From NCBI GenBank assembly GCA_026419785.1, contig JAODTK010001610.1:124001-188000 (forward strand): DNA of 64,000 nt, in the 5' to 3' direction. Position numbers and translations under genes: made by a program. Source of the stretch: Sclerodactyla briareus (Eukaryota; Echinodermata; Holothuroidea; Dendrochirotida; Sclerodactylidae). The first letter of the stretch is position 1, and every line of letters starts with the position of its first letter. Shown here in pieces: positions 8,661-55,445 of this stretch. The notes under the pieces are model-generated. The model was not told where the DNA came from. It did not search any database and saw only the letters and a program-made list of their open reading frames with translations.

Positions 8661-8703
8661 TGGTCCAAGGCCTCCATAGACTGGCCGTGGACGGCACATT
8701 TTT

Positions 8704-11430
8704 TTCTCGCCTGAACTTTGTTCAAAAGAGACATAGGGGTCAACTTTGTGGTGTGTGTGTGTGGGTTTTGTCTGTCGGGATGTCCGTCCGTTCTGTCTGT
8801 CCGTATGTGCGTTAGATATCTCCTGCTGAACCGTGGAACCATCATGCTGGACCTTTTTTGTGGAGGAGGCGCCGGTGAAGAGCCTCTGTGCATCCACTTT
8901 TCGTCTCAAAGGACCATACTCATTGCATAAAATTGCATATTTAATGAAAATTGGCCCAGAAGCTTGTGTGCACGATGTCTCTTGATCGGTGGATGCATTG
9001 GTGATGCCGTTCGGAGATTAGAACAACTATGAAGTGTATTTATACAAACTAATAGATTTCTAGGAAGATATATGTAATTAAGTTAGCATTTGCATAATTT
9101 CTTGCAATATTTTTGAAGTTCGTTGGATTTTGAGAAACTCGGTTGGGAAGTGGAGATGGTTTATCTATAGTCAATACATTTTACCAGTAGTGACGAGGGT
9201 CACAAAGGCATTTAATGTTCCTAATTTGCATTTACCTAGTCTAATGTGCATGCAGATTTAAAGTTGGTTGAATCTCATGATGGTTCACCTTTATCCTGAT
9301 AAATTTAACAACAGTGCAAAGGTCACTGAAGGTCATTTATTGTGAATAATTTGCTAAATTACGCAATTTTTCAAGTTTTGGTTAAATGGCCAATGACAAT
9401 TGGAGGAATGAGTGCAGTTAGGGTGCTCGTTAATGTAAAAGATTTGTATGGGAATTTTAGGTTCAGGGGATCCAAACAACACAAAGACGAGGGGGTCAAA
9501 GGTCAAAGGTAAAGTTATAAGAAAATGTGCTTATTTTAGGAGTTACAGGGCAAAGAAATGAAAAACCGTCAATTTTTGGAATTGTGATAGTAGAGCTCTG
9601 TGTGCTACATGCTGAAACCAACCTCCTGCTTCGATTCTGACACCTGGTCTCCAAGTAGAAGGGGCCAAAGGGCGATTTGGATACCTCTGGCGATAGGCAT
9701 AGGGTGTGTATCTGAATTACATAATGCTTTTGGGGGCTGAGAGGGCATCCCCCAAAAACACTCGAGGCAAGCATTTTCCTATACAAACTTCATGTCATCA
9801 AAGGTCATTCAAGGTTCACTCATGGACAAGAACGGCCAAATAATAACAGTCCCTGCAACAGCCTCTAGTGACTGTGATGTGAATATGGCTGAAATTTGGG
9901 GACAGCAGCATATTAATCAAGGGTGACCATTTTTCATAAACCGTTAAGTCATCAAAGTCATCAAGGCTCACTAGGGACCAACTAATGCAAAATAAAACAT
10001 TTCCTGCAACGGCCTTCTAAGGGAAGTATGTGATATGGCAGATGTGTTCTGAGACAAAATTGCTCATCTTAATGGGAATTTTGATTTCATTAAAACTGTT
10101 TGTTACAAAGGCCCACATTCAATTATCAGATCCTAATTGTGAAGAAAGTATTGAAATAAGTAAAATAGTCCCTACAGAACTCCATACATTTTTTGATAAT
10201 TATTATTACCTCCGGTACCCATTTAAGAATGGGATAGTCTAGCTCAGCAGCATCACTATTAATATGCAGAAACGGATCTATGAATTTTTACTCATTTCAC
10301 CTTTCAACCCCTCAGGTATGGTATTTCATTCATGTTAACTAGTATCTTATCTGTAACAGACAGAGATTTAATTATTGTCTTATTCATATCAACTTCAAGG
10401 GCATACCTGTTGACAAAATGTAGAGGAACATGGTTGCCCAATTGATCGCAGCAGCGAGTTACAGTGGAATCCCCTAGTAATCACCTATTAAATAGCCAGA
10501 GTCCAGCAACACAGTACTGTTCATGTCAACAGCCAACAGCCTGGGGTCAGGTACACCTGCTTGGGAAGTGGCGAAGAGCCAATTAGATGGCTTATTCCCA
10601 CTCAGACAGGGGATGCTGGGACAGTAGCTGTGAGAGGGGGGAGGGGAGGGCACTGCCCTAGGGACGTTGCTGAAGGAGAAGATGTAATATATAAAGGCAT
10701 TAATCTTGATGATATGTAGAATAAACTTTATAAATTTAGGACATAGCCATGTGAGCTATGGTGGGGCATAGGGCCGTTACATCGTTTGACATCTGGAGGG
10801 GGGAACTATGAACTCCAGTAATATTGAGTTTTAAGGGGGAGTACAGGGTACAGTCAATGATGGCCGATGAATGTTTAATATTTAGAGGTATTAGGATTAA
10901 CCATTACATGTAGACATTTTACTGGATCACTTTGCTATTGCTAATATTCTTTTTTTTCATTCCATTCACATTATTTCTGGATTATTTGCTATATAAATTT
11001 ATGATTATTATTAGTACTATTATATTTATATAGACTGGGGACACTGGAGGTCATTCGTTGTGTTTATTTTGCATGGTTCATTCCAAGTTCATTCGAGTTT
11101 CTGCATGTGTGAACCATTTTGAAGAATATTTGAAGGTGAGGGAAAATGGGGTCGGTCAAGGAATATATTTCCGTTGACTATTGTGTCTATTTGCATAATT
11201 TAGTCACATTTCCACCAAACTTGTACTTTTTAGCGACATTGTCAATAATCAGTCCTAACGAATTAGAAATTGGTCACCGAGTAGTCTGGCTGTTTCTGTT
11301 TTTCTGTTGAATGCATATACCAAAATCTTAAGCAACACATGGAATGCCTGTGTGAATGTTTGCCATGGTTGACTAAATAGAAGAAATCACTGATCGCGCA
11401 ACAAGGGCGAGACACTGGGGCGGGAAATTC
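8704..11430 (+). repeat. Large dispersed repeat, copy 1 (sister at 25065-29270)
   Basis: Starts CTCGCCTGAACTTTGTTCA, then a GT/GTCT microsatellite, then a segment with GCATATTTAATGAAAATTGG. Further on come ATGGTTTATCTATAGTC, TTTAACAACAGTG, GTGCTTATTTTAGGAG, a CTGACACCTGGTCT block, CCCCTCAGG, GACAGAGATTT and GATAAACTT. It ends GATCGCGCAACAAGGGCGAGACACTGGGG. All these blocks recur in the same order at 25065-29270. No long frame runs through it. Its structure (hairpin-like start, microsatellite, AGGTCA tandem units) resembles pearl/CvA-type Helitron-like non-autonomous elements known from oysters and sea urchins. That comparison is from memory and not from a search. Confidence 0.8.
9493..9512 (+). 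promoter_or_regulatory. DR1 (AGGTCA) site inside the repeat
   Basis: GGGTCA, one A, AGGTCA, one A, then AGGTAA. The sister copy has a perfect AGGTCA-A-AGGTCA at 27963-27975, so the DR1 is ancestral to the repeat. Function is not shown. Confidence 0.35.
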
Positions 11431-16823: not shown

Positions 16824-18452
16824 AATGAATACGAGTCATCTCACCTGAATATTGATTTGAGTCATCTCACTTGACCCCCATGATTACTGAATTGAGTCAT
16901 CTCACCTGAGCCCCATGAATACTGAATTGAGTCATCTCACCTGAGCCCCATGAATACGAGTCATCTCACCTGAGCCATGAATATTGAATTGAGTCATCTC
17001 ACCTGAGCCCCATTAATATTGAATTGAGTCATTCTCACCTGAGCCCTGTGAATACGAGTCATCTCACTTGACCCCCATGATTACTGAATTGAGTCATCTC
17101 ACCTGAGCCCCATGAATACTGAATTGAGTCATCTCACCTGAGCCCCATGAATCGAGTCATCTCACATGAGCCCCATGAATATTGAATTGAGTCATCTCAC
17201 TTGACCCCCATGATTACTGAATTGAGTCATCTCACTTGAGCCCCCCATAAATACGAGTCATCTCACCTGAGCCCCATGAATAATGAATTGAGTCATCTCA
17301 CCTGAGCCCCATTAATATTGAATTGAGTCATCTCACCAGAGCCCCATGAATACGAGTCATCTCACATGAGCCCCATGAATACGAGTCATATCACCTGAGC
17401 CCCATGAATACGAGTCATCTCACCTGAGCCCCAAGAATACGAATCATCTCACCTGACCCCCAAGAATACGAGTCATCTCACCTGAGCCCCAGGAATACGA
17501 GTCATATCACTTGAGCCCCGTGAATACTGAGTCATCTCACCTGAGCCCAGAATACGAGTCATACTCACTGACCCCATAAATATGAATTGTAGTCAGCTCA
17601 CCTGACCCCATGAATACTGAGGAGTCTTCCTCACCTGAGCGCCCCCAGTGAATGCTTGTGTAATTGTGAGACATACTCAACATGAGCCCAAGTATATACT
17701 GGAAATTGAAGGCATTCACCTGAGAGCCCCATGAATGTTGTAATGAGACAGCTCACATGAGCCCCATGAATACTGAACTTGAGTCATCTCCCTGAGCCCC
17801 ATGAATATTAAATTGAGTCATCTCACCTGAGCCCCATGAATACTGAAGTGAGTCATCTCAACCTGACCCCATGAATTCTGAATTGAGTCATCTCACCTGA
17901 GCCCCAGAAGGCTGTAATGAGACAATCTCACATGAGCCCCATGTATACTGACTTGAGGCATCTCACTGAGCCCCATGAATATTGAATTTTGGGAGTCATC
18001 TCACCTGGCCCCATGACATATAAATTGAGTTCCTCACCTGAGCCCCATTGAATACGACTTGAGTCATCTGACCTGTGCCCCATGAATAATGAATTGAGTC
18101 ATCTCACCTGAGCCCCATGAATACGGAATTGAGTCATCTCACCGAGCCAGATGAATTGGAATTGAGTCATCTCACATGAGCCCCATGAATGTTGTATTGA
18201 GACATCTCACATGGAGCCCCAGGATTACTGAATCGAGGCATCTCACCTGTGCCCCATGAATACTGAGTTACGTCATCTCACATGCGCCCCCATGAATACT
18301 GAAATTGAGTGATCTCACCTGAGCACCCTGAATATGAATGAGTCATCTCACCTAAGCCCCATGAATACTGAGTTGGTCATCTCACTGAGCCCCAAGAATA
18401 ACTGAATCTATCATCTCCCTGAGCCCCATGAATACGGAGTTGAGTCATCTCA
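16824..18452 (+). repeat. Minisatellite of 35-bp and 29-bp units
   Basis: About 1.63 kb of direct repeats. The long unit is GAGTCATCTCACCTGAGCCC followed by CATGAATACTGAATT (35 bp). The short unit lacks TGAATT (29 bp). Units with a TT before GAGTCA contain TTGAGTCA, the AP-1-type heptamer TGAGTCA. Short units carry CGAGTCA instead. A TTGACCCCCATGATTACTG variant unit recurs about every 150-300 bp in the left part. The right half is more diverged. It lies in the interval just upstream of candidate exon B. Confidence 0.95.
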
Positions 18453-24956: not shown

Positions 24957-25064
24957 TGTGATTGTAGCGGGGTTTAAGACGTACAGACTACATTTCACTA
25001 TAGACATATTCATATAAAGAACAATTACCGTTATAATAACAATATGAAGCAATAGAATTTCAAC

Positions 25065-28000
25065 AGTTTGGTCTCGCCTGAACTTTTTCAAGGAGAGACA
25101 TAGTGGTCACTTTGTTGTGTGTTGTCTGTTGTCTGTCTGTCTGTCTGTAGTCTGTCTGTCTGTCCGTCTGTCTGTACCGATGTGCGGTTAGATTCTCCGA
25201 ACAGGTGACGCCATTCAGGTGGACCTTCTTGAGGGAGGTGTGCGGTTGAAGAGTTGCCGATTTTGTGCATTCCATTTTCGGCCCAAAAAGACCATTCTCA
25301 TTTGCATAAATGCATATTTAATGAAAATTGGTCCGGAAGCTTGTGTACAAGATATCTATGATCGGTAGAGGCAGTGGTGATTGCCGTTCAGGCTATATAA
25401 CACATATGAAGGTACACAAATTGATCGCTTCCTGGCATGATATAGATAAATAAGTAGTCTAATTGCATTATTTCTGCGAGATTTGAAGTTTGTTGGCTTT
25501 ACGAAACTTGGTTGCGAGATGGTTTATCTATAGTCCAATGAATTGACAGTAGGGATGAGGGCCAAGGGCATTCAATGTTACTAATTCTGTTCATCAAGGG
25601 TCACTTGGGGTCAAAAACTGTTTTTGGCCGTAATCGAAGAAGAATTGAATGTCTGTGGAGGCTGGAAGGTTCACCATGGCTATAATTGTTGACCTTGCAT
25701 GTGTGTGAACTCTGACCTCATTTACCTCTGTCGGGGGGGTCATGTGGTAAAGGTTGGTCTTGAATATAAATGTGCTATTTAAGGAGGGACAGCAAAAACC
25801 AAATAAGAAGGCAGGAAACTGGTAATTTTTGGATATGTGATTAGAGGTGTGCTTTCTGGAGGAGACAACTCCCGCTTCGATCGGAAGCATACTTTGGTAG
25901 TTACAATGGGGTCAAAGTTAATTTATAGCTTTTTCGCATAACAGTGGGCGTGTTCATTGGAATGCATATGCTTCTAGGAGCGGATGCATCACATGGAGAT
26001 AAACAATTTATAAAGCCGCCATGTCATTGAAGGTCATCAAGGTCACTTAGGGTCAAAAACTGAATTTAGTGACATTTTTGGCAATAGCATGGGATGTTCA
26101 TCCGAATGCAAAATGCTCCTAGGAGGGAGTGTATAACATGGAAGTTACAATTTTAAGAAAAACTGCAAATGGCATTTAAGGTCATCCAAGGTCACTTAAG
26201 GGTCAAAAAACGTTTTCTGGCAGTAATCGAAGAAATGAATGGCTGTGGAGGCTGGAAGGTTCACCATTTGTGATTATAATTGTTGACATGCATGTGGTGA
26301 CATCATGACCTCATTGGACCCTGTGGGTGGGTTCATTGGTCAGGATGAGTCTTGAATAAAGTGCTTATTTAAGGAGGAACAGGCACAAAAAATAGAAAAC
26401 TGGGTATTTTGGAATATGTGAAGAGGTGGGCTTTATGGAGGAGACCAACTCCCGCCTGCGATCGGAGCCTTACTTTGGTAGATTACAAGGGGTCAAAGTT
26501 TATTTAATAGCTTTTTCGCAAAACATTGGGCGGGTTCATCGGAATGCAATACGCTTCTAGGAGCGGAGCATCACATGGAGAGTCAACAATTTTATAAAAA
26601 CCGCCACATCATTGAAGGTAATCAAAGTCATAGGGGTCAAAAACTGAATTTAGACTTTTTGGCAATAAGAAATGGGCATGTCCATCAGATAGCAAAAAGT
26701 CCTAGGAGTGGATGTATCACATGGAGAGTTACAATTTTCATAAAAAAATGCATGTCAGGAAAGGTATTCAAGCGTCACTTAAGGGTCAAAAACTGTTTTT
26801 CTGGCCATAACGGAGAATGAATATTGTGAGGCTGGAGGTTAACTATTGTCATATAATTGTTGACCTGCATGTGGTGACCTCTGACTCAATTTGACCTCTG
26901 TAGGTTGGGCATGTGGTTTTAACGTTGAGTCTGAATGATGGTGCTTATTTAAGGAGTACGGGCAAAAAAATAGAAAACTGGTATTTTTGGATATGTGAAG
27001 ACTTGTGCTCATGCGAGGGAGACCAACTCCCTCTCTGATCGGAAACAACTTGTTAGTTACAGGGGTCAAAGTTCAATTAATAGGCTTTTTGCAATAAAAT
27101 TAGGGGTGTTCATTGCACTGCAATATGCTTCTAGGAGGGGATGCATCACATGGAGAGAAACAAGTTTAATAAAAACCGTCAGTAATTGGGTGGAAGGTCA
27201 TCAAAGGTCACGTAAGGGGAAAAAACTGATTATAGTACTTTTGGCAATAGCCACTGGAATGTTCATCAGATGCCAAAATGCTCTAGATGTTTGTGGATTA
27301 ACATGGAGAGTTACATATTTTCATAAAAACTGCCATGTCATTAAAGGGTCATTCAAGGTCCACTTAAGGGCGTCCAAAAATGTTTTCTGGCCCTAATCGG
27401 AAAATTGAATATCTGTGAAGCTGGAAGGTTCACCATTGTGATATAATTTTGACTGCATGTGTGTGACCTTGACCTCAATTTGACCTCTGTCGGGGGGTCA
27501 TGGGGTGTTTTAAGGTTGAGTCTTGATAAATAAATGGCTTATTTAAGGAGTACGGGCCAAAGAAAAAAACTGGTTATTTTTGGATATGTGTAGACCTTGT
27601 GTGTTCTTGATGGAGGAAACCAAATCCCGCTGCGATCGGACGCAATACTTTGTGTCTACAAGAGGTCAAAGTTAAATTTAATAGCTTTTTCGCAATACAT
27701 TAGGCGTGTTCATTGTGAATTCCTCATGAAACTTGGTGGAGATGGTTACACCTTTGATCCTGATTTAACAACAGTGTAAAGGTCATATAAGGTCAATTTA
27801 ATGTGAATAATTTGCATACAATTACACAATGTTTTCGAATTTTGTTAAATGAGAGTAGTAAGGAGTAACAATTGGAATGAATGCAGCTAGGGTTGCTCAG
27901 GAGAGATTTGTCATGGTATTTTGGGGTTTCAGTAATCAAACAACAGCTATAGACAAGGTTAAAGGTCAAAGGTCAGCTTAGAAAATAATGTGCTTATTTT

Positions 28001-29270
28001 AGGAGGTACACGGCCAACAGAAATAAAAACGTGTCGATTTTTGGATATGATGATATTTATATCTGACATAGACGAAACAAACTCTAGCTTCAATCTGACA
28101 CCTGGTCTTAAAGTACAAAGGGGGTAAAGGTGATTTTAACCTTTGTGGCGATAGCATAGGTTGTTATGTTACATGAGACATAATGCTTTGGGGCTTGGTG
28201 CATTCACATTGAGGCAAGCATTTCCATAAAAAAACCGTATGTCATCAAAGGTCATTCTGAGGTCAAAAACTGCCAAATATTAACATTTTATGATCATTTA
28301 GTTACTGTGTGTTATATAAACTGAAATTTCGGGATGCTGCATATGATTAGGGTAACATTTTGCATGAAAAACCGTTATGTCATCAGTTCATCAAGTCACT
28401 TATGACACAAACTGGTCAAATAAATAACATTTACTGCAAACAAGGCCAGAGGACTGTACGCTACTGCTTACGAATGGTTTAGTCTTGGGCACCCTAGCTG
28501 ACCAAGCATGATGCTGGAAATCGCTTATTATTATCGATGATACAAGAACAGAAATGTTTTACTCATTTCAAACCCCTCAGGCATGTTATTCCATTCATCG
28601 TAAACTAGGATTCCCATCTGTGACAGACCGAGATTTCGCCATTGTCAAAACTGCATTTGAGGTTCACATCAGCCTGTCATAACCTTTTCTGGGCCCCATA
28701 CACTGACAATATAAAATTGTAACAATCAGTCATTTGTTTCTTACTCCAGGCACATATTCAAGAATGGAAGGGGTGTCAGGTGTAACCTGCAGTAGCTCTG
28801 GGTGTAGAGGGGGGAGGGAGCGTAACGCCTTGTAGCACTTATTGTCATAGCTTCAGCTACAGTAGGGCCTACATGTCCATAATTAGATGCTTATTCCACT
28901 TTCGACAGGGGATGTGAGAGGGGGTGGTGTGAACTACCTAGGGAGTTGATGGACGTAGTAGATGTAGAGATGTATAAAGGGCATACTCTTTTGATGATAT
29001 ATCTAGGATAAACTTCTTAGATTTAGGGTTCATTACATGGTTTGGACAATTACAGTAATCTGAAGGGAACTATTAATAGGAGTATGGTTTATATGGGAGG
29101 GACAGTAGGGTGTTGTCAATTGATGGCAATGAATGTTGGAAATATTTAAGAGGTATGGGATATTAAAAGCAACAATGAATGCCAGTTGTAATTGTTGCCA
29201 TGGTGACTAAAGAAGAAATCACTGATCGCGCAACCAGGCGAGACACTGGGGGCGACTAGCCTTGTAAATC
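25065..29270 (+). repeat. Large dispersed repeat, copy 2, with internal tandem expansion
   Basis: Sister of 8704-11430 in the same order and orientation. It starts GTCTCGCCTGAACTTTTTCA, has a GTCT microsatellite (25120-25177), and ends ATCGCGCAACCAGGCGAGAC then ACTGGGGGCG. It also holds 25560-27720, where the anchor TAATCGAAGAA..TGAATG recurs at 25631, 26224, 26808 and 27394, a period near 588 bp. Each such unit splits into two related halves, both with CTAGGAG, CACATGGAGAG, AAGGTCATCAAGGTCACTTA and GGGTCAAAAACTG. Copy 1 lacks this array. Confidence 0.85.
27963..27975 (+). promoter_or_regulatory. Perfect DR1 AGGTCA site in the repeat
   Basis: AGGTCA, one A, AGGTCA. Orthologous position to the 9493 site in the sister repeat copy. 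The layout suits RXR/HNF4/COUP-type receptors; activity is untested. Confidence 0.35.
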
Positions 29271-32367: not shown

Positions 32368-32425
32368 AAACGAAAAAAATCTGTGCGCTATGCGCCAACC
32401 TGTGGTGGCTCTCCGCTTAGATGGT
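32368..32425 (-). repeat. GCGCCA-hairpin repeat motif, minus-strand copy
   Basis: On the minus strand it reads CCATCTAAGCGGAG, AGCCACCACAGGTTGGCGCA, then TAGCGCACAG followed by a T run. It matches 44327-44380 including the CCATCTAAGCGGAG lead, and it matches shorter copies at 47059, 47636, 48157 and 48517. Confidence 0.7.

Positions 32426-37383: not shown

Positions 37384-37435
<52 letters not shown>
37384..37435 (+). repeat. Uninterrupted run of 52 G
   Basis: The longest homopolymer in the window. It is followed by three TTGGTTGTAGTTGGTCAGAG-like direct repeats (about 37440-37585, period about 45-55 bp) and by a repeat-element end at 37605-37675. A run this long can be an assembly or base-calling artefact, or a real G-quadruplex-prone tract. 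Confidence 0.9.
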
Positions 37436-43572: not shown

Positions 43573-44326
43573 CTGAGTATTGGGTTCCTTCAGATGTTGT
43601 CGATAAATAAACGTATATGTAAAATATATTATTAATCTAATCATAATATAGTAATATTATAGGCCTATAAGGCATATTCTACTTCCTTACTCCTTATTCA
43701 TCTGGGTCGTATGACTATTACGCTCTTTTACTTCCTCCGATGCATAGAAGCTCCCTGGTCCCAATATAGCTCAGTTGACCTCCGTTGACCCTTGTTGATG
43801 GTCGTACTGTCACAAACGGTGATATGAATTATCTAGCCTGATCTTAGAATAACCTGATAACCTACCCATCGGATAGCAGCCAGAGGCGGCATGCATTTTT
43901 CTGATGACTTCAAGCCGGCGCCACCAGGTTGGCCCGCAACATCCCTACAAATGTTTGTACATATGGCAGGACACTACACTCCCCCTTTCCGTGCCTCTAG
44001 AAGTAAACAACACCTCTAAAATTTACAGAACTTCCACTTTCATCATTCCGGGAAATATTCTCGAAAATATCTAGTTGATAGGCTCTGGCTACAATTCACT
44101 TTTTTTTAGCATTTCCCTAGTTCATGCATCATAGAGAATTTACACGGGGCTCGCAATATGAGTTTCAGATGGGCCAAAATTATGTGAACTAAATTTATGT
44201 ACCACTGACTTCCTGTCCGCGATCTAAGCTGCTCACACCACTGATTGCCCGCACTCGAATTCACGTGGCTCACTTTGAACTGGGGGGTGGGGGCACAGAC
44301 ATTTTGTGGGGGCACAAGTAATACCA
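43573..44326. other. Non-coding DNA
   Basis: No repeat sister in the window and no supported exon. Confidence 0.35.
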
Positions 44327-44851: not shown

Positions 44852-45175
44852 TATAATTCTATTTTAAAAAATCTATAGAAAATCTTATACATATTCTATA
44901 GAGCCCCTCTTAGAAACTCTAAAATTTTCCAAAGAATTTCTAAGAAAATCTTAGGATCTTCTATAGGCACTCTAGAAAATTCTAAAAGATTTCTAACGAA
45001 CTCTATAAGATATTCTATAAAACTCTAATATATATATCTAATAATTTCTAGAAAATCTATAAGGCATTCTATGGATCTGTGAAGAATCTCTAAAGGAATC
45101 TAACACTATATTCTTGAAACTCTGTTGGGGTCTCGAAATAATTTCTAAGAATCACCAAATGATTTTTTAAAAAAA
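44852..45175. repeat. Degenerate TCTATAGAAA / TTCTAAGAAA array
   Basis: More than ten imperfect words of the type TTCTATAGAA, TCTTAGAAACTCTA and TTTCTAAGAA in 320 bp. The core TTCTATAGAA is its own reverse complement, so orientation cannot be assigned. The same word family returns at 54060-54130 and 54905-55112. Confidence 0.85.
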
Positions 45176-46529
45176 ACATATTCTAATTCTGGTATAAACC
45201 AGGCATATATATAGGTTTTCGGGAGACGATCGTTATCGGGAGTCGATCATGCGTATCTAATATTAATTAGCCAATGCGGGAACAGCAAGCGATGATTGAT
45301 TAAACAATGTACCAATATTCATCAAACTGAGTGATTTTTGGGAGAAATTGTCCTATCCTGGTCACCAGAGAACGCAAATTTACCATTTTCAACCCACAAT
45401 TTAGGTAAATCTGGAACAGACTGATTGACACACCTTTTTCAAATAGCCACCCATTAACGGTTGGAATATTTCTCCTGATTTCTCTTCATTCACATGCTAA
45501 CGAACAATTCACATCGTACATATTTCAAGCTGTCACCACTATTGTTCATGTTTAGCAGCAAGTTGCACAACTCACCACAGTGATTGACTCGCGATAACTC
45601 CTAAGTTGCTGAGCTGTAAAAGTGACCGACTTCAACATTCCATTCTCATTAATTGTTCCATGGAACTGATGCAAACTGTGGCATGTGGAAGATATGATCC
45701 AATAAACCATACGCCGAATTCCGTGTATTTTGAATGGTGTTCTATAGGAAAAAATGTGAAGAATAGTTTGCTGCTCTCGTTAGGTGATTTGACTCCAGAA
45801 CACTCCATTTATACTCCTCGATTGGCCGGGAAATAGTTGAATACCTTTCTTTACCCCCCCCCCCCCCCAATCCCTCTCCCAGACGGGACCGGTCCTCGCG
45901 CTCAGGCTAACTGTTATATCAAATATATTGTGTGAATATTGCGCATCGGAAATAAAACTATGCAGTGCCAATACCCACAACCTGAGGCTATGGAATAGCA
46001 TGGCCTAAATAAATTCTTCCCTTTGAATGTTTGGCTAATTAAGCTCGTTTCCACATCATTTCCAAGAATAACACAAGGGACCCTACCGGTCAGATAATTG
46101 TGAATCCTCCTTTTTCCTGTCAAAAGGCATATCAAATACACATTGTTCAACATGTTAATACCAGTAATAGGACTAACCATACACAAATTGCACCCATACT
46201 TTTTGTCCACTATATAGCACATACAAACTTTGTGTGTACTACTTGCCTATGTTCTACACTTGAATAGTCGTTAGGCTTGGCCTACACATTCACTCTACAA
46301 ACATTAGGTTGAATATAATAAAATAATCCCAAATAGTAATACCAATCATAATTTACAATTGACAAACTTTGTATAATAATTCCTGGTCATTAATACTCAT
46401 ACATATCCAATGTTCCTTGAATACTAACCAATTTAGACTGTAATGGCTGTCCATTCGAACTACATGCCCTAACTGCCGGGGTCTGCTCGATATCCATCAG
46501 TTCGATATCCCCATAAAGGGGCATTATTC
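45176..46529. other. Non-coding DNA
   Basis: AT-rich; C15 run at 45856. No repeat sister, exon or RNA gene found. Confidence 0.35.
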
Positions 46530-46945
46530 TAAAGGTTTCGTCATTCATACGGCAAATTTTTCGAAAAAAGGTTCGTACTTCTAATGGAAATAAAGGTTCA
46601 TATTCATATAAAAGGGGTCATAAGCCTAGGTTCGATCTTCATAAAGAAGAAGGTTCGGTATCATAATAGAACAAAACGTCGATAGTCATAGCGAAAAAAA
46701 GGTTCGATATTCATAATAGAACAAGGTTCCTATTATTCATAATAGAAAAAAAGGTTCGATACCTAATGGACAAAAGGTTCGATATTCATAATAGAAAAAA
46801 AGGTTCGATATCCCTAATGGACCCAAATTTTCGATATTCCTAATAGAACAAGGGTTTCGATATCCAGACGGACGCGAAAGGTTCGATATTCATAATAAAA
46901 CAAAGGTCGATATCCTAATGGGACCAAAAGGTTCGATATCCAGTA
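46530..46945 (+). repeat. GGTTCGATATTCATAATAGA array, left arm
   Basis: About fifteen units of roughly 25 bp. Two unit types tend to alternate: GGTTCGATATTCATAATAGA and GGTTCGATATCCCTAATGGA, each followed by an A run. The reverse complement of the first type forms the array at 53335-53790, so the two are inverted relative to each other. Confidence 0.9.
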
Positions 46946-47058
46946 ATAATCCTAAGTGGGTAGGTTGCCGGGAGAAATGATTTTTGAAGGTTTATACCAG
47001 GGGCGTACCCCCGGGGGGGGGGGGGGGGGTGTTGGCACGCATGACTTAAACTGGCCAC

Positions 47059-47092
47059 CACGAAGTTGGCGCATAGCGCACAATTAATGTTG
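47059..47092 (+). repeat. GCGCCA-hairpin motif copy
   Basis: GGCCACCACGAAGTTGGCGC followed by ATAGCGCACAA. It lies about 60 bp inside the CAGGGGCGTAC end. Confidence 0.65.
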
Positions 47093-47593
47093 AGGTCTAG
47101 AACCCACATATCCCAGGAACATTTCCTGGGCACAAAATTGGACATCTGAATTCCTCCGTTAGCCTCAGAACTAATGGTTTTTACATCCATATTTTTTTAA
47201 TTGCTTGCCAACTTTCACATATTTATAGGTTTGAACCTTAAAACATCGCATCTTCCGTAAACTTCCAACCTTTCTTCTATAGGCCAACTCAAAGTCTCGG
47301 CTCTTATATAAAGAAGCTATTCCAATAAATATAAAGTTACCCCTACCCATAATTTGGCACGAATGTCCTCTAGCCTAGGACAGCTGAACAAACACGTAGT
47401 TTATAGGAGGGAATCGAAAAAAATCAAATTCGCCAACAGCGGGTAGGTGAATGCGGGTAACGACTTCAATCGGAGAGTTGAAAAATAATTGTTCCCTCCT
47501 CTCCACTTTTTGTTTTGGTGAGAAACATTGTTTAGTTTGCGTGGGCCCTTTTATCTTGATTCTAGACCCCATCCCTTATAATATAACACATGT

Positions 47594-47712
47594 CAGGGGC
47601 GTAATGAGGTTTTGTCAACCCGGAGGCGCGGTTGAACGGAGCGCCACCACAGTTGGCGCGGAGAAATCATTTTAGGGTTTCGACACCTCCCAGGACCCGG
47701 AACTGACCCCTC
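47594..47712 (+). mobile_element. CAGGGGCGTA-type element fragment with hairpin motif
   Basis: Starts CAGGGGCGTAATGAGG, then GGAGCGCCACCACAGTTGGC then GCGGAGAAATCATTTT and GGTTTCGACACCTCCCAGGA. It shows the same order (CAGGGGCGTA end, then GCGCCA..TTGGCGC hairpin) as 46998-47092, which links the two motifs into one family. Confidence 0.55.
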
Positions 47713-48156
47713 TGAAGCCTGTGAGAGACCGTTTATACTTACACTATCTGTTAAAACGAAGTGCCTGCTCGTGGTGGAATCCCACTCAAAACAAAAATGA
47801 TTTAAGCACTCTAACTGGAATCTGTTGAATCTAACGTGAGGGTTGGGTGTTCGAATAATTGATGTTTATGAGCGGTCATTCTCCTCCTTCTGAACGTGTG
47901 CATTCATATCAGGCTGAATAACATTGATCATTGCATATGGCTTCATCTCTTTTGTCGGACAGGATGAAACTGCATTGGCCGTGGCTTCGCGTCCTCCTTG
48001 CCAAGAACATTCCCTTTTTGCAAATGACTCCCCTCCTGGGGCAGCTTTTTTTTTCCTCCTATGCAGACATTAAGAATGCGTAGTCTCCCCCCTCTCTCTG
48101 ACGTGATCCGGTTTGAGGAGAACAGAGACAAAGTGGGACTGCTGAATGAGTATCCT

Positions 48157-48210
48157 AACGGAGCGCCACCAATGAGTTGGCGGTAGCGTACCGAGATATT
48201 TTTTACTTTT
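48157..48210 (+). repeat. GCGCCA-hairpin motif copy
   Basis: CGGAGCGCCACCAATGAGTT, then GGCGGTAGCGTACCGAGATA, then a T run. It is closest to the consensus among the plus-strand copies. Confidence 0.65.
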
Positions 48211-48512
48211 CCTACCACCTGGACCGCCGGATCGAACTTCTGGGCTACCTTGCAAACTTGGATGTTCAAATGTTTTTTTTTTTGGAAAGAGTATGTCAGC
48301 AAGTGATTACAACTAGCTAATTACCAAGATCCCACTGAAAGTTTATAATTTACGTGAACAGGTGAAACTAAGGAACCCCCTCTGCTTAGCCCTTACGATC
48401 TGACCGGCAAAATGACAATATGTGAATAAATGTAGACCCCCTTGTGAACATACAGTGGGGACGCCGGAAGAGGAGGGATAGGATATTTTATAGTGTCGTC
48501 GAGTTACATCTG

Positions 48513-48565
48513 GCGAGAGCCATCATCAGTTGGCGCGTAGCGTACACAAAATATTTGTGGGGAAA
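48513..48565 (+). repeat. GCGCCA-hairpin motif copy
   Basis: GGCGAGAGCCATCATCAGTT, then GGCGCGTAGCGTACACAAAA and TATTTGTGGGG. Confidence 0.65.
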
Positions 48566-50808
48566 GGTCCTAGATGCAAGGGAATTACACTTCCTATTTT
48601 CCCCCGACTATTTTTAACATAGCTGATGCAGTAGCGCAGCCCTAGTTTTTGAAGGGGGATGAACAATGAAATATTTGCTTATTGGTATATCCGATAAAAT
48701 AACCAAATCCTTAACAAAAAAGTTGCCTAAATTCCATTGAAGTTCATGAGCCTACAGTACCTATACAGACCCACTATTTTTGTTGGCACTCAGTAGTAAA
48801 TATTTTGGGTAAACATTCCTCTTTTTCTTCCTCACCTCGTATCTCCCCATTCTTCCCCCGAATTGCGCTATTCGAGTTCTCGGTCTCAATTGATTAGGCA
48901 CTGCCACGGAAGCCTGTGATATTTGGGTTTCTATCCCTAAATCATTGGTTTTCTTAATTATGACACCCGGGCTATACTGTCTGACTATATTTGGCAGGGA
49001 CTTTCGTTTGACCCAATCTCATGGAGAATTTTACCTTCCTTAATTGAGTTTTTCCGAGTTTTACCAATACGAATATTCGGTGTAAGCATATATGCTAAAA
49101 TGGTGAAGCCTGGTGATGCAGTCATGGCATGGAGCACATGCTGTTTAACAAGGTGATGGGGTGATGGGCTTTCGAACCAGAAAATACTCAGTTGTTAATG
49201 TTGAAGTCAATGGAGCGCCGCTAAAACGTGACGGTATATATATATATCCTCTCCATCCCCGGGGTGGGGCGCCCACAGTGTAATGCCACAGCCAGAAAAC
49301 GAACTCGTCGGAATTAAGCATATCAATACACGATTACAAAAGTCTCCGTTACATCATTGGGCGTCCACCACCGTCAACAGAAAATTGGAAATAGAAAAAG
49401 AGAAAAACGTGAAATGTTACGGCCCCAGACTACATAAATATCTTTGCTCCAGATCGCATGTAAGGCGCGTTGTAGAGGCTGTTATATTAATATTTTTTTT
49501 TTTTTTTTTTTTGGGGGGGGGGGGGGAGGGGGATTATTACCTGAACAACTAAGTGGGGCACCATCATCGGCTGGAGCTGATCGTAATATTATTTTGTTTA
49601 GGGGGGCTTTAGTAGAACCGCGCCTGATTGTACCGAACAGGGTAACGTTGTGCTATTGAGCTGTAATCTGCAGGCTGTGGGGTTTGCTTTCATGGAGCAG
49701 GATAATGGTCCATCCACCAAAGGATTTCAACATTAATTTATGTCGAAATTGAATAGAACTCATGCCTTATAACGACTATGGACGGACCACCGGGATCGTC
49801 ATGGTCCCCGTGACTTTTTTCCAGAGATAGGCTGTGTGGGTCGGATTTTGAAGAGCTGTTTCTGGGGGTCGGATTTTAGGACGGAGCCTGATGATGTAAA
49901 CAACGGTGATTGTCCAGCAAAGTAGGGGGGGGGGGGGGTCTGTCCAGTAGTGATGGCGAAGACACTTCGAAGACCTTTTTAGCAAGCATAGGCTAGGCCT
50001 AGGATAGCATTTGATAGGATGGGGCGGAGTGGAGGGGAGGGGGCGGGCTATAGTGCTAGAATGTAGGAAACATTTTGACATTATTTATATTTAATACAAT
50101 TCCCGCTGGCATGTAGAATACACCCGACACCACTCCATTCACGGGAATAAGACCATAAGAGGTCACTACTGATGGCGCTTGTTTTCCGCGACATGTGATC
50201 AGCATCGTGGACACTCTCAGTATTTCGAGCACCCTGTCATTGTAGGCCCGATTTGTATGATATATGACCTATCACTGCACCCACCCGCCCTTCTTCGCCT
50301 CCTACGCCCAGGAGTGACACTCGCGAATCACCTCCCGCATTTACATTATACAACTTCCCGGTTGATCCATGATAGTGAGTATAGGCTATACATACGCTAT
50401 GAGGGCGATGATTTATAGCCTCACCGCGATCAATGTAAGACACCAAGAGAGAACGTATAGCCGTGCTGTACAATGTGTGGGAGGGATCGGAAGAGAAACA
50501 GCCTACTGAAACTCATCATCTGTTGCATGTGATGCCTTCATTTGAATTATTGGAAACATTCCCAAAAGCCTAATTATTTTAAACAGACGCTCCGATTCCC
50601 CCTTCAGGATGGTTTTTAATTTCAAACATTGAACCCCCTATTATACCCTGGACAATAGAAAAAAATCGGCCGTAGGTAAGCGGCAGGCATTCCACGACTC
50701 ATCAAAGGCAACTACTATATTAGTGATCAATGAGAAATCTGGACAATCTGACGTTATCCATAATAGATATTCTTAATAAAGCATTCGCCAGGTGTGTGTG
50801 TGGGTGGA

Positions 50809-50811
<3 letters not shown>
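48566..50811. other. Non-coding DNA inside the inverted-array interval
   Basis: T16-20 followed by G14 at about 49493-49526, and G13-14 at 49925-49938. Two small frames at 49283-49659 exist only because they cross these runs. No gene supported. Confidence 0.35.

Positions 50812-50839
<28 letters not shown>
50812..50839 (+). repeat. Run of 28 G
   Basis: Uninterrupted G run after a GTGTGTGTGGGTGGAGGA lead. It lies just upstream of the LINE relic. Confidence 0.9.
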
Positions 50840-50934
50840 TGGACCAAGACCACTGTGTCAGTTTTATAGAAAAAATAACAAAGAAGGTAGCGCAACGCGA
50901 CACAAGGACGTAGCAGGAGGCTGGGGGGAAGGAA

Positions 50935-51570
50935 TGAGTGGAAGTCGGTGCCTGAATAAATTTTGGAGACGCAGTGGAGAGGAAATCAGTCTATCAAAAT
51001 GCAAAGTCTTGCCGAGTCACAGGAAGATAAAACCTTTAACCCGAGTGTTGCCGACTTAAAAATGTTGCGATTCACATTAGGAGAAACTGACCTATCCCCA
51101 CGCGGTTAAACTATTCAACCACGACCTGCGATGAGTTCAGAAGATGCAGGGAAAGCCACAACTGACTTTTTAAGGCGGTGTTTATCATGCTCCTCTGACA
51201 TCAAAGAGAGGCTCTACTAGACCTTACTCTTGTTCGCCCACATCTGGATTATGCGACTGCAGCCTAGGATTCCTACACTGTTAGAAAAGTTCAACGGCAG
51301 GCGGCACGTTCTGTTAAAGGACAGTTATAGAGAGTGCATGCAGTGTCACCAATCTAGTCTTTAAAGCTAGAAGAGAGGCAATCGCGTGTCTTGTCCTTAT
51401 TTATATGTTGGTTGCCACACTATCCCAAAACGTGAAAGATGGAGGAGAGGTTATCAGAGCAGTGAAATTGTCCCCTCAGCAGCTTCTGACGTCCATATTA
51501 TTATTCCTAGGACTATAAAGCACGGACTGAAGATTGTCAGAAATTTGTAAATAAGACCGTCGGCCTCCTT
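50935..51570 (+). mobile_element. LINE (Jockey/CR1-like) reverse-transcriptase relic, C-terminal part
   Basis: Conceptual pieces in shifting frames follow the order of the C-terminal reverse-transcriptase and thumb region of Jockey/CR1-clade LINEs: SLSKCKVLPSHRK (family: W..xFNxSKCKVLRVT), then FLRRCLSCSSDIKERLY (family: FLRRNL..C..DIKExxY), then RPHLDYATAA (family: RPxLEYAxxVWDPY), then VQRQAARSVKG (family: VQRRAARFV), then SVTNLVFKARREAIACLV (family: L..RR...RL..MYK). At least three frameshifts and several stops separate them, so the copy is dead. Assignment rests on remembered family motifs. Confidence 0.75.
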
Positions 51571-53282
51571 TTTCTAAAAGAACTTTCTCTCCCTAATTAC
51601 TGTCAACCCCGCTGACGACTCAGTTTGACCCCGTCGTGCTTTCGTCCACTTCGACCAGGTCTGATCTCTGTGCGCTGATTAATTCCTTCCGTTTCGTTGG
51701 CGTATCTCGCAAGTCCCGGAAAGAATTGGCTTCTTGTTTCCCCAGTCGGCTTCCGAAGTGCCCAGATGTTGGAGCCACGTGATATGCACTGTATTTAGAA
51801 TCCCGAGTTGCTGGCATATTCCCGTGATAATGACTACTATCCGATTGAAAAGTTTTACACTCCTATATCTTCCACGTGATCCGCTCTTCTCTGTCTTCTT
51901 CACATCGATTTCATGTTTGTCCCTTCCTCTCCCGTGTCTATTTTCTCTTCCAAACTTTTGCCGAATGGACAAAAAAATCCGCCCACCGACGACCAAATAT
52001 TGGGGTTGTTCGCCGGGCCGCCTCAATAATGATCATCTTAAATTGCCGTTTTAACTGGCTTCAGTGCTCTTATTCCCGCATTGCCCCTTGGATTCATATT
52101 CTATGGAAGTTTGCCGCAAAGCCGTACAAATCATCCACCATGTACAGACATTGCGGCATAGATGCCCGCCGCCTCAACGGGCCATCACAAGTCTCGCTGG
52201 GTGTCATTGTTTACCCATGGGACCATTTGTTTTACCAATGCATAAATCCAATTATTTTCAACCTATACGCGATCGAGTGTTTGTTTTTCTCAGTTAAAAA
52301 CAGACTACACGGACCATGCTTGCCCCGGATTAAAAATAAGTTGATTGCTATACCGGCGATGCCATGAAAACAAAAATACTGTAAAGCCCATCACGGGGGT
52401 TTTGTCACGGACCACGGACAATTTCCACGTACTACAACAGTGGAATCGTCCAGGTGTTCTGTGGGCAACAAAACGACCCATGGTAAAAGAAATATTGGAA
52501 TCGTACCTGGACTGAAAGCCCAATGTAAAGCCCCCCCCCCCATCCACACAGACACGACAAATATTTGAGATGCACACATTACCTTCCGCCCAATTGTTTC
52601 ATTACATTATTAATATTCCTTCAAAAATGATGGGAGGGACGGCCTTCCGTCTTTCCGTCTTGGACTGGGGGAGGGAACATGGTTTTAAATGGGGAGACGT
52701 CTTCCCGCCGTCATGATTTTGGTGTTTTGTGAGATGGCAGGGAATACGAGGGCGATTTCATACCCTATCCTTCTGGGAGCCCATGCGATTTTTCGAGGGA
52801 AGGGGAAAAAGTACTTGGTACTTAGGGTGGTTGCCACAGGAAGTTTCAACTGGAGGTACACGGTTGGCCACTATATAACAAAAATAGGCACGGTCAATTT
52901 CCGTAGAAGTTCTGCAGCTGAGGTTATGCCAACAATTCCTTCCCCATTCCCCCGCCCCTCCTTGGCGACTTACTAAGCATTAATGAATTTCGAACCGTTA
53001 CGAATTCCCAATCCTCTTGCTTCATGGCCGGTACCCACCGGGCACCGGGGAGGGGGGGGGGGAAGGGGGAGGTTGGGGTCAGAACCGCCTCCCCCCATGA
53101 CCCAGTGGCCAATAAATTTTTTAACAAACAAAAACTGATTCTTTTTTGCAGTTCAGTAAGGTTTTGGCCCTGTTTTAGCAAATATTACAGCACAGTGTCT
53201 AGGGGCCCATAAATTGTACTTATTATGGGTTAGCCCAATAGGGATGGGGAGGGCGCACTTTTGCTTTGGGGTCCGACTTCCA
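51571..53282. other. Non-coding DNA
   Basis: Overlapping frames on both strands at 51620-52577 lack splice context and recognisable domains. The plus-strand frame 51876-52367 (163 codons) is serine-, proline- and arginine-rich and ends without context. I see no gene that can be supported. Confidence 0.35.
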
Positions 53283-53334
53283 CCCCCCCCCCCTCCCCCC
53301 CCCCCCCCGCCCTCGTACGCGCCTGTCTTGCTTT

Positions 53335-53790
53335 CTATGGATATCGAACCATTTGTCCTATTTATGAATATCGCACCTTTTTGTCGATTATGATTACGAA
53401 ACTTTCTTCTAATATGAATATCGGAACCTTTTTTTCTATTATGAATAACGAACCTTTTCCTATTATGATAGCGAACCTTTTTTTTTCTATTATGATATCG
53501 AACCTTTTTTTCTATTATGGATATTCGAACCTTTTTTTTAGTTTGGATATCGAACCTTTGTTTCCATTATGAATATCGAACCTTATCTTCTATTTGAATA
53601 TAGCCGAACTTTCTTATATTATAAAAAACAACCTTTTGCTATCATTGATGATACCGAACCCTTTTCGGCCATTATGAATAACGAACCTTATGAACAAGAA
53701 CCTTTTTGCTCATTATGATACGAACCTTAATGAATAACGAACCTTATGAATAATGACCTTTTTGACAATGACCCTTATGAAATATAAACG
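53335..53790 (-). repeat. GGTTCGATATTCATAATAGA array, right arm (inverted)
   Basis: The plus strand reads TATTATGAATATCGAACCTT with T runs, about sixteen units of 22-28 bp. This is the reverse complement of the 46530-46945 units. Toward the right the units decay to AATAACGAACCTTATG. Confidence 0.9.
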
Positions 53791-54900
53791 CTTATGAATA
53801 TCGGGCTGTCACCTAACTGCCATCGCTGCATTTGAATTAGGGCGTCCAAATACAAACTGTCTTGGTCAGTCTCTGGTTTGTTTGAATCTGACTAAATATT
53901 ATTTAAATTTATCTGTAGACAGTAATAAATTAAATAATTATAGTGAAGGCTAATTAGTCTACAATTTCACTATAGATTCCAAAACATTTTTTCATGATGG
54001 TTTAGATTTGATAAATGAGCATACATGTTTATGAAATAGCCTAAAATGGCAACCCCCATAATTATTCTATAGAATTCTATATAAACTCCTATAGAAACTC
54101 TATATAATCCTATAGAAATTAATGAAACTGTTTATAAGTAAAATCAATTTCTCATCCATCTTTTGCAGTAGGCAGATAATCAGGTCCTTTCGGACAAGCT
54201 AACAGAACAGCCAGACGACCCAAACATCTTGAGGCCTGTCCACATATCTAAATCTCCTCTTTTATTGTTATTTAGAGCATAGAATGTCTAATTTCTTAAA
54301 TGGGCTGCATGTTGTGTTGCGTGGGGGGTGGGGGGGGGGGGGTTACATATAGCCTATAACGAACCAAAATGAAACAAAGTAACATTGTGGCAGGCATGGC
54401 GCGCTAAAAAGTGGAAAACGTTGAGGTGAGCGCATTAGCAGTAACGAACTGCTTCGCCGCCTTCCTGTCATTAACACATTATGAAGGTGTTAAAAGATGC
54501 GCGGATATACTGCTTATTCCTTAATCTGGCCAACTCTCCCTCCCAACCATTTGAATTATAGTCAAAGTCAAGTTGTCGTCACCCATCAGTGCAACAGCTT
54601 GCTCCTCATCTTTAAGTTGAAGTGTTGACAGACGAGGATACACAATGAATTGATGTTTCATTGATAACAATTTGATGTTACCCACTAATTAGAATATTAT
54701 CAATACAGATGTTGTGACGTTATCATGTGAGCAGCAAAAATTCCGGAAACTATCCAGAAGACAACAGGACGCCTTTTAACTAGCAGCCCACACAACGTTC
54801 ATCATATTTTTCCACTGCAATTTACCTGCACTATTAATTATTATATTATTAGTATTATTATTATTATTATTATTTTATTAATTATATTCTCAATGCTTAG
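53791..54900. other. Spacer with first TCTATAGAA cluster
   Basis: Contains a short cluster of ATTCTATAGAATTCTATA and CTCTATATAATCCTATAGAA words at 54060-54130, a G run at 54329-54341 and an ATT microsatellite at 54844-54885. No gene. Confidence 0.6.
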
Positions 54901-54904
54901 CTTT

Positions 54905-55112
54905 CAGATTCTATATAGGTCTATAGAGTTCTGAAAATAATCGATAGAACTCTATAAGTGACTACTGCTTACACAAACGGTTAATATAAAATGTTTTTAT
55001 CGAAATCTATAGAAACTATGAAATCTATAGAAAAACATGAGCTTCATTTTAGAAAATTGGCATTTTCTTCTAATAGAGACCTGAACTCTATCGACTACGT
55101 CATAGAATTCTA
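54905..55112. repeat. Degenerate TCTATAGAAA array, right side
   Basis: Words such as TTCTATATAGGTCTATAGAG, AAATCTATAGAAACTATG and AAATCTATAGAAAAACATG. Same word family as 44852-45175. With 54060-54130 it places this repeat outside both inverted arrays. Confidence 0.75.
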
Positions 55113-55369
55113 AGAACTTTTTGTAAGGGTAAGGGTTCGTAATAAAAATACAAGAGGTTGACTGTAGTTTCAAGGTCAATGAGAATTGTTGTTTATGGTA
55201 TAATTTCAGTGTTTAACCTCACTGATATGTATGAGTGGGGAGCCAATGAGGTAGAAATTTCCATAGAGTGTGCGGAGATACGGCCGTGAATCCAACGGGA
55301 CAGAATCCCTACTAGTCGAAACTGAACTACAGAATACTTTTTCGAAAATCAATATCTCATTTGGCTGGC

Positions 55370-55445
55370 CCGGGGGGGGGGCACAAGTTTTCGAGGGGGG
55401 CACGTTCCCCCTGCCTCCCCCCCTTGGCGACGCCACTGGTCCCCA
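55370..55445 (-). mobile_element. Terminal fragment of a CAGTGGCGTCGCC-type element
   Basis: The minus strand reads CCAGTGGCGTCGCCAAGGGG, then GGGAGGCAGGGGGAACGTGC, then CCCCCTCGAAAACTTGTGCC. The CAGTGGCGTxGCCAxGGGGGG start is a common end of non-autonomous DNA elements in invertebrates. Only one end is seen. The minus-strand 143-codon frame across it is accidental. Confidence 0.55.

Follow-up and report, generated by a model that had tools for sequence, protein, structure and literature searches.

Results

A repeat-rich window with two inverted arrays

The window, by which we mean the whole 64 kb stretch of DNA that was analysed, holds two arrays of degenerate ~26-bp units in inverted orientation, each accompanied on its inner side by a CAGGGGCGTAC/oligo-G border, with a middle domain of ~6.25 kb between the borders. 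No open frame in the window is longer than 205 codons from stop to stop, the tRNA and Rfam scans of the whole window returned 0 and 0 matches, and six of the ten window ORFs compared with Pfam had matches, every one of them under the curated cut-offs. Tandem repeats are plentiful, with 34 rows reported by Tandem Repeats Finder, and runs of at least 9 G or C bases occur 27 times, the longest, of 52 bases, at 37384. By its look, the window is presumably non-coding DNA of an animal genome. The repeat copies are rich in indels (gap openings/mismatches of 90/79, 37/58 and 4/16 in three pairs), so that part of the decay described below may be sequencing error, and the G/C runs together with these indel-rich copies may point to an unpolished assembly.

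Other repeats were observed in the window. A ~35-bp tandem array, TGAATACTGAATTGAGTCATCTCACCTGAGCCCCA, extends from 16846 to 18452 with about 48 copies and 11% indels. A ~310-bp unit is arranged in tandem at 585-2589, part of it being found again near 18.8-19.1 and 41.4-42.0 kb, and a local tandem duplication occupies 25591-27720. Colinear similar segments also link 8.7-10 kb with 25-28.4 kb (8696-9226 with 25063-25586, and 9279-10009 with 27741-28439), a similarity that may stem from a segmental duplication or mark a repeated element.

The features of the locus, in order along the window, are the following.

46468..46477, + strand: putative target-site duplication, left copy, CCTAACTGCC; 9 or 10 bp, depending on the placement of the right terminus
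46478..46948, + strand: left arm, about 20 degenerate ~26-bp units with consensus GGTTCGATATTCATAATAGAACAAAA; from Tandem Repeats Finder (46628-46948), the unit parse and the inverted match to the right arm
46998..47029, + strand: left inner border, CAGGGGCGTACCCCC followed by a 17-base G-run; from sequence match
47030..53282, no strand: middle domain, ~6.25 kb, without recognisable coding domain
47058..48556, + strand: stretch with four copies of a ~40-bp motif, GGAGCGCCACCA..AGTTGGCGCGTAGCGTACA, at 47058, 47638, 48160 and 48515
50940..51560, + strand: possible frame-broken reverse transcriptase tail of a non-LTR retrotransposon; from a weak frame reading
53283..53325, - strand: right inner border, CAGGCGCGTACGAGGG with G-runs; from sequence match
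53328..53811 (53812 with a 9-bp duplication), - strand: right arm, about 21 degenerate ~26-bp units, inverted relative to the left arm; from Tandem Repeats Finder, the unit parse and alignment
53812..53821, + strand: putative target-site duplication, right copy, CCTAACTGCC, adjoining the right arm

The 26-bp arrays form a pair of inverted arms

For the 26-bp family, Tandem Repeats Finder gave 46628-46948 on the left and 53336-53689 on the right, where it also reported a 16-bp row at 53672-53800. We took 46478-46948 and 53328-53812 as the limits of the arms, the outer ones being set by the 10-mer that flanks them. Parsed against the 26-bp consensus, the 471 bp of the left arm gave 20 pieces, a further one of 2 bases being omitted, and the 485 bp of the right arm gave 21, including one of 6 bases. 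The near-equal lengths of the arms depend on the limits chosen, a point that counts against reading the locus as a foldback element.

Matches to GGTTCGATATTC with up to 2 mismatches number 24 in the window, compared with 4.5 expected (100 shuffles, largest 9); 18 of them fall in the two arrays, and the other 6 are scattered. All nine matches in the left array lie on the + strand (46499-46941) and all nine in the right array on the - strand (53339-53743). The best inverted BLAST pair joins 46628-46915 to 53634-53339 with an E value of 4e-37, and local alignment of one arm to the other scored 238 in inverted and 22 in direct orientation. Across the whole window, 39 minus-strand BLAST pairs were obtained at E 1e-4 or better, 17 of which connect the two arms; the remaining 22 comprise 21 G-run pairs and one dispersed-motif pair. 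The first-pass annotation, which had described a GGTTCGATATTC array followed by the same array inverted, is borne out by these results.

The 19-base unit was matched once in viral contigs and twice in archaeal contigs (one per contig), where ~2 matches are expected by chance (257 Gb, both strands), and these matches were set aside, their number being near chance. Searches of viral contigs with exact patterns only retrieved no array pair and no dispersed motif.

The arms share an end-to-end register

Identity within an arm is similar to identity between the arms. This favours an explanation by coincidence, in which one repeat family is represented by two independent arrays, or by two short elements bearing arrays, that happen to be inverted and 6.3 kb from each other, the flanking 10-mer being a chance occurrence as well. 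The register of the arms argues against it. Among 21 rotations, the unshifted register fits best, with a score of 366 (357 if only the 6-base end piece is moved, and at most 331 for the others), and random ordering of the units never attained this score, either in the right arm (500 orders, mean 289, maximum 349) or in the left arm (500 orders, mean 285, maximum 346). Reversal of the unit order gave 300, as opposed to the observed 366. When the units were shuffled within blocks of 3, 4, 5 and 7, a score of 366 was reached by 36, 91, 100 and 3 shuffles per 1,000, respectively. The inner 11 units displayed no order (238 of 1,000 shuffles reached the observed score), and the outer units a weak one (17 of 1,000). 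The register signal seems to come largely from a gradient along the arms, the outer units being short and degenerate and the inner ones full. The fine unit order between the arms is weakly conserved, which, like the single locus known, speaks for independent arrays. Against them, the outermost 40 bp of the two arms align, with a score of 13 that was attained by 0.23% of 3,000 random pairs. The terminal bases of the arms are asymmetric (GGGGTCTG vs GTGACAG), a feature that counts against a foldback element.

A duplicated 10-mer at the limits of the putative element

Directly outside the two arms, at 46468-46477 and 53812-53821, stands the same 10-mer, CCTAACTGCC, which was found only at these two outer array edges when the whole window was searched on both strands. 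Random pairs of 30-bp windows drawn from the same sequence had a 10-mer in common at a frequency of 8.8e-4 and a 9-mer in 0.29% of cases (196,940 trials), and wider random pairs shared a 10-mer in 0.42% of cases at 60 bp and in 1.3% at 90 x 100 bp, all of these window sizes having been chosen after the 10-mer had been noticed. The restriction of the 10-mer to the two outer edges is a further point against independent arrays, which we consider unlikely. The CCTAACTGCC pair looks like a target-site duplication of 9-10 bp; a 9-bp duplication, CTAACTGCC, would place the right terminus at 53812, and a 10-bp one at 53811. Because the flanking 10-mer reads as a target-site duplication, one inserted element of ~7.33 kb is the best reading of the locus.

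No inverted similarity was detected past the arms, the ~600 bp inside them scoring 20 (null mean 21.5, 95th percentile 27.8) and the ~600 bp outside 19. Farther out lie the matches to TCTATAGAA, of which the window contains 13 with up to 1 mismatch, compared with 2.6 expected. Nine of these form three clusters, at 44871-45022, 54065-54117 and 55005-55032, about 1.4 kb outside the left arm and 0.25 and 1.2 kb outside the right arm; the other four are elsewhere. That TCTATAGAA clusters occur on either side is the argument for reading 10 kb of the locus, these arrays included, as an ancient palindrome or inverted duplication. Their core word, TTCTATAGAA, reads the same on both strands and therefore carries no orientation, and the wider arrays fit better in direct than in inverted orientation: the left array scored 38 direct and 26 inverted with the first right cluster (maximum of 36 in 200 single-base shuffles), and 32 direct and 25 inverted with the second (maximum of 31 in 200 single-base shuffles). 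No duplication flanks the TCTATAGAA arrays, the longest strings shared between 70-bp windows being of 7 and 5 bases, and a target duplication at this position was rejected on that ground. With the inverted similarity absent both outside and just inside the arms, the palindrome is already largely refuted, and we regard it as extremely improbable. The TCTATAGAA arrays are probably local repeats unrelated to the element.

The first-pass annotation had proposed a nested mirror of arrays, representing either a large foldback element or an ancient palindrome over the whole 10 kb, and had advised a search for target-site duplications outside 44.8 and 55.1 kb. The mirror holds for the 26-bp arms but was not confirmed for the TCTATAGAA arrays, and the palindrome is not supported, as similarity ends at both ends of the arms. 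The foldback element survives as the best reading, with limits at about 46478-53812 instead of 44852-55112, and a putative duplication was found at the edges of the arms instead of outside the TCTATAGAA arrays.

The inner borders face each other

The CAGGGGCGTAC sequence is exact at 46998-47008 (+) and is found with 1 mismatch at 53315-53325 (-), with about 50 bp between the left array and its border and 2-10 bp between the right array and its border. This 11-mer is not rare, with 10 matches in the window at up to 2 mismatches compared with 6.8 expected. When only the first 12 bases are considered, the right end agrees with the left end at 10 positions, a level matched by four other sites of the window. 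When 30 bases including the G-run were compared at the 9,391 sites starting with CA on both strands, the left site itself included, the right end was the best match to the left end, with a score of 36, the next separate place scoring 28. Since the 12-base match ties with four other sites, the pairing of the inner ends rests on the G-run and on position. The earlier claim that the inner CAGGGGCGTAC end recurs inverted on the other side stands over 30 bases and loses its distinction over 12. An element with CAG...CTG ends at this place would be hAT-like.

A similar terminus, CAGTGGCGTCGCC with a G-run, was observed at 55361-55438 (-), and no partner was noticed for it.

Facing each other like terminal inverted repeats, the right end being, with the G-run, the best window match of the left, the inner ends could also belong to an element of 6.33 kb (46998-53325), bounded by CAGGGGCGTAC...CTG and nested between the arms of a smaller foldback element or palindrome made of the 26-bp arrays, and the comparable CAGTGGCGT and G-run end at 55438 (-) favours such an arrangement. 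Yet the inner ends lack a direct repeat: at 46998 and 53325 no target-site duplication was detected over lengths of 2-11 bp, at most 3 positions agreeing, and a CAG...CTG element with its own target duplication was rejected for this reason. No transposase domain was found in the six-frame Pfam search, and the first 12 bases are no better than four other sites, all of which make nested transposons very unlikely.

The middle domain lacks recognisable coding capacity

A Pfam search of 46900-53400 in six frames, with X at stops, gave 0 families at E<=1. No transposase, of the Mutator type or any other, was found in this copy by the six-frame Pfam search, which counts against a foldback element. 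Beyond its four copies in the middle domain, the ~40-bp GGAGCGCCACCA..AGTTGGCGCGTAGCGTACA motif is present outside the element at 32373 (-) and at 43918 and 44334 (+), for a total of 7 sites, with 0 in one shuffled copy of the window. The stretch at 50.94-51.56 kb, read with frameshifts, may be the weakly recognisable tail of a reverse transcriptase from a non-LTR retrotransposon. Support for this tail came neither from Pfam nor from PDB sequences, among which it had two matches (E 0.53 and 1.6); in viral contigs 13 stretches fitted its pattern, 0 of them confirmed, and a 40-residue piece of it had no match in phages.

Discussion

The two arms are inverted, correspond in register from end to end, and are flanked by a duplicated 10-mer. 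We interpret the locus as a single old, decayed, non-autonomous foldback-type DNA transposon of ~7.33 kb (46478 to 53811 or 53812), with a probability of about 0.7. The structural features of the foldback type that could be tested were found in the element, in one copy only: inverted long arms that hold tandem repeats, a duplication of 8-10 bp directly outside both arms, here CCTAACTGCC in a single copy of the element, and a middle that, like that of non-autonomous foldback elements, lacks conserved coding capacity (0 Pfam families at E<=1). The interpretation comes from one copy at one locus. Target duplications in the Mutator superfamily are of about 9 bp, with which the 9 or 10 bp observed here fit, and from the length of the duplication only we infer that the element may be Mutator-like.

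Each arm, of ~0.5 kb, would consist of an outer domain of ~20 degenerate 26-bp units and an inner CAGGGGCGTAC/oligo-G border. A transposase supplied in trans by another copy may have bound the units of the arms, which would have served as its binding sites, and may have brought both ends together; insertion through a staggered cut would then have left 9-10 bp of target in duplicate. The units could have been kept alike by slippage or unequal exchange, and this copy would have decayed after insertion. It is also conceivable, and in our opinion quite unlikely, that the element stands for a foldback family not yet described, from an invertebrate-like genome, with two-layered arms in which a 26-bp array is joined to a CAGGGGCGTAC/oligo-G border like the terminus of a second transposon. 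If this is true, one set of arms could be served by two transposition systems, with 6 kb of cargo carried along.

In FB and sea urchin (TU) elements, the arms are composed of outer short tandem repeats and a non-repeated inner part, with unit lengths that differ from the ~26 bp found here, the comparison being by description and not by sequence. Galileo differs from the present element by its P-superfamily transposase and by a target duplication of 7 bp, compared with 9-10 bp here. By analogy, the extra transposase-binding sites in the Galileo repeats could provide a model for the unit function proposed above. In the available parts of the cited papers, Galileo, a P-superfamily element with foldback-like arms, resembles the present element by its long, internally repetitive arms (PMC4079207, PMC3573991, PMC3688188), and foldback elements are described in which the arms contain tandem repeats, the non-coding middle varies, and the target duplications measure 8-10 bp (PMC4079207, PMC3169594). 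The Tetris paper cites both the FB elements of Drosophila and the foldback elements of sea urchins (PMC4079207).

The Tm1 Mutator/Foldback elements of root-knot nematodes, as described in the accessible text of their report, carry duplications of 8-10 bp, mostly 9, in 45 of 53 complete elements, and are similar to the present element in their inverted arms, which are composite and repeat a short motif, in the asymmetry of their terminal motifs, in the 8-10 bp duplications, and in having groups that lack a transposase; compared by description and not by sequence, their motif is of ~14 bp, whereas that of the present element is of ~26 bp (PMC3169594). Unlike Tm1, the present element has no transposase-bearing relative found. 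Tetris of Drosophila virilis, in the portion of its report available, is likewise similar in having tandem repeats inside the arms, a non-coding middle of variable size and 8-10 bp duplications, but its repeat unit is of ~220 bp and its arms reach 1,735 bp, again on a comparison by description and not by sequence (PMC4079207).

In the same available portions, foldback-like elements have been linked to satellite arrays (PMC4079207) and to chromosome inversions (PMC3573991). Given these ties, copies of the present element would be worth mapping. Beyond its coordinates, unit and duplication, the element is ordinary. For one foldback element there are now coordinates with defined limits, the unit of its arms and a candidate for its target duplication, which is enough to seek its family in the source genome.
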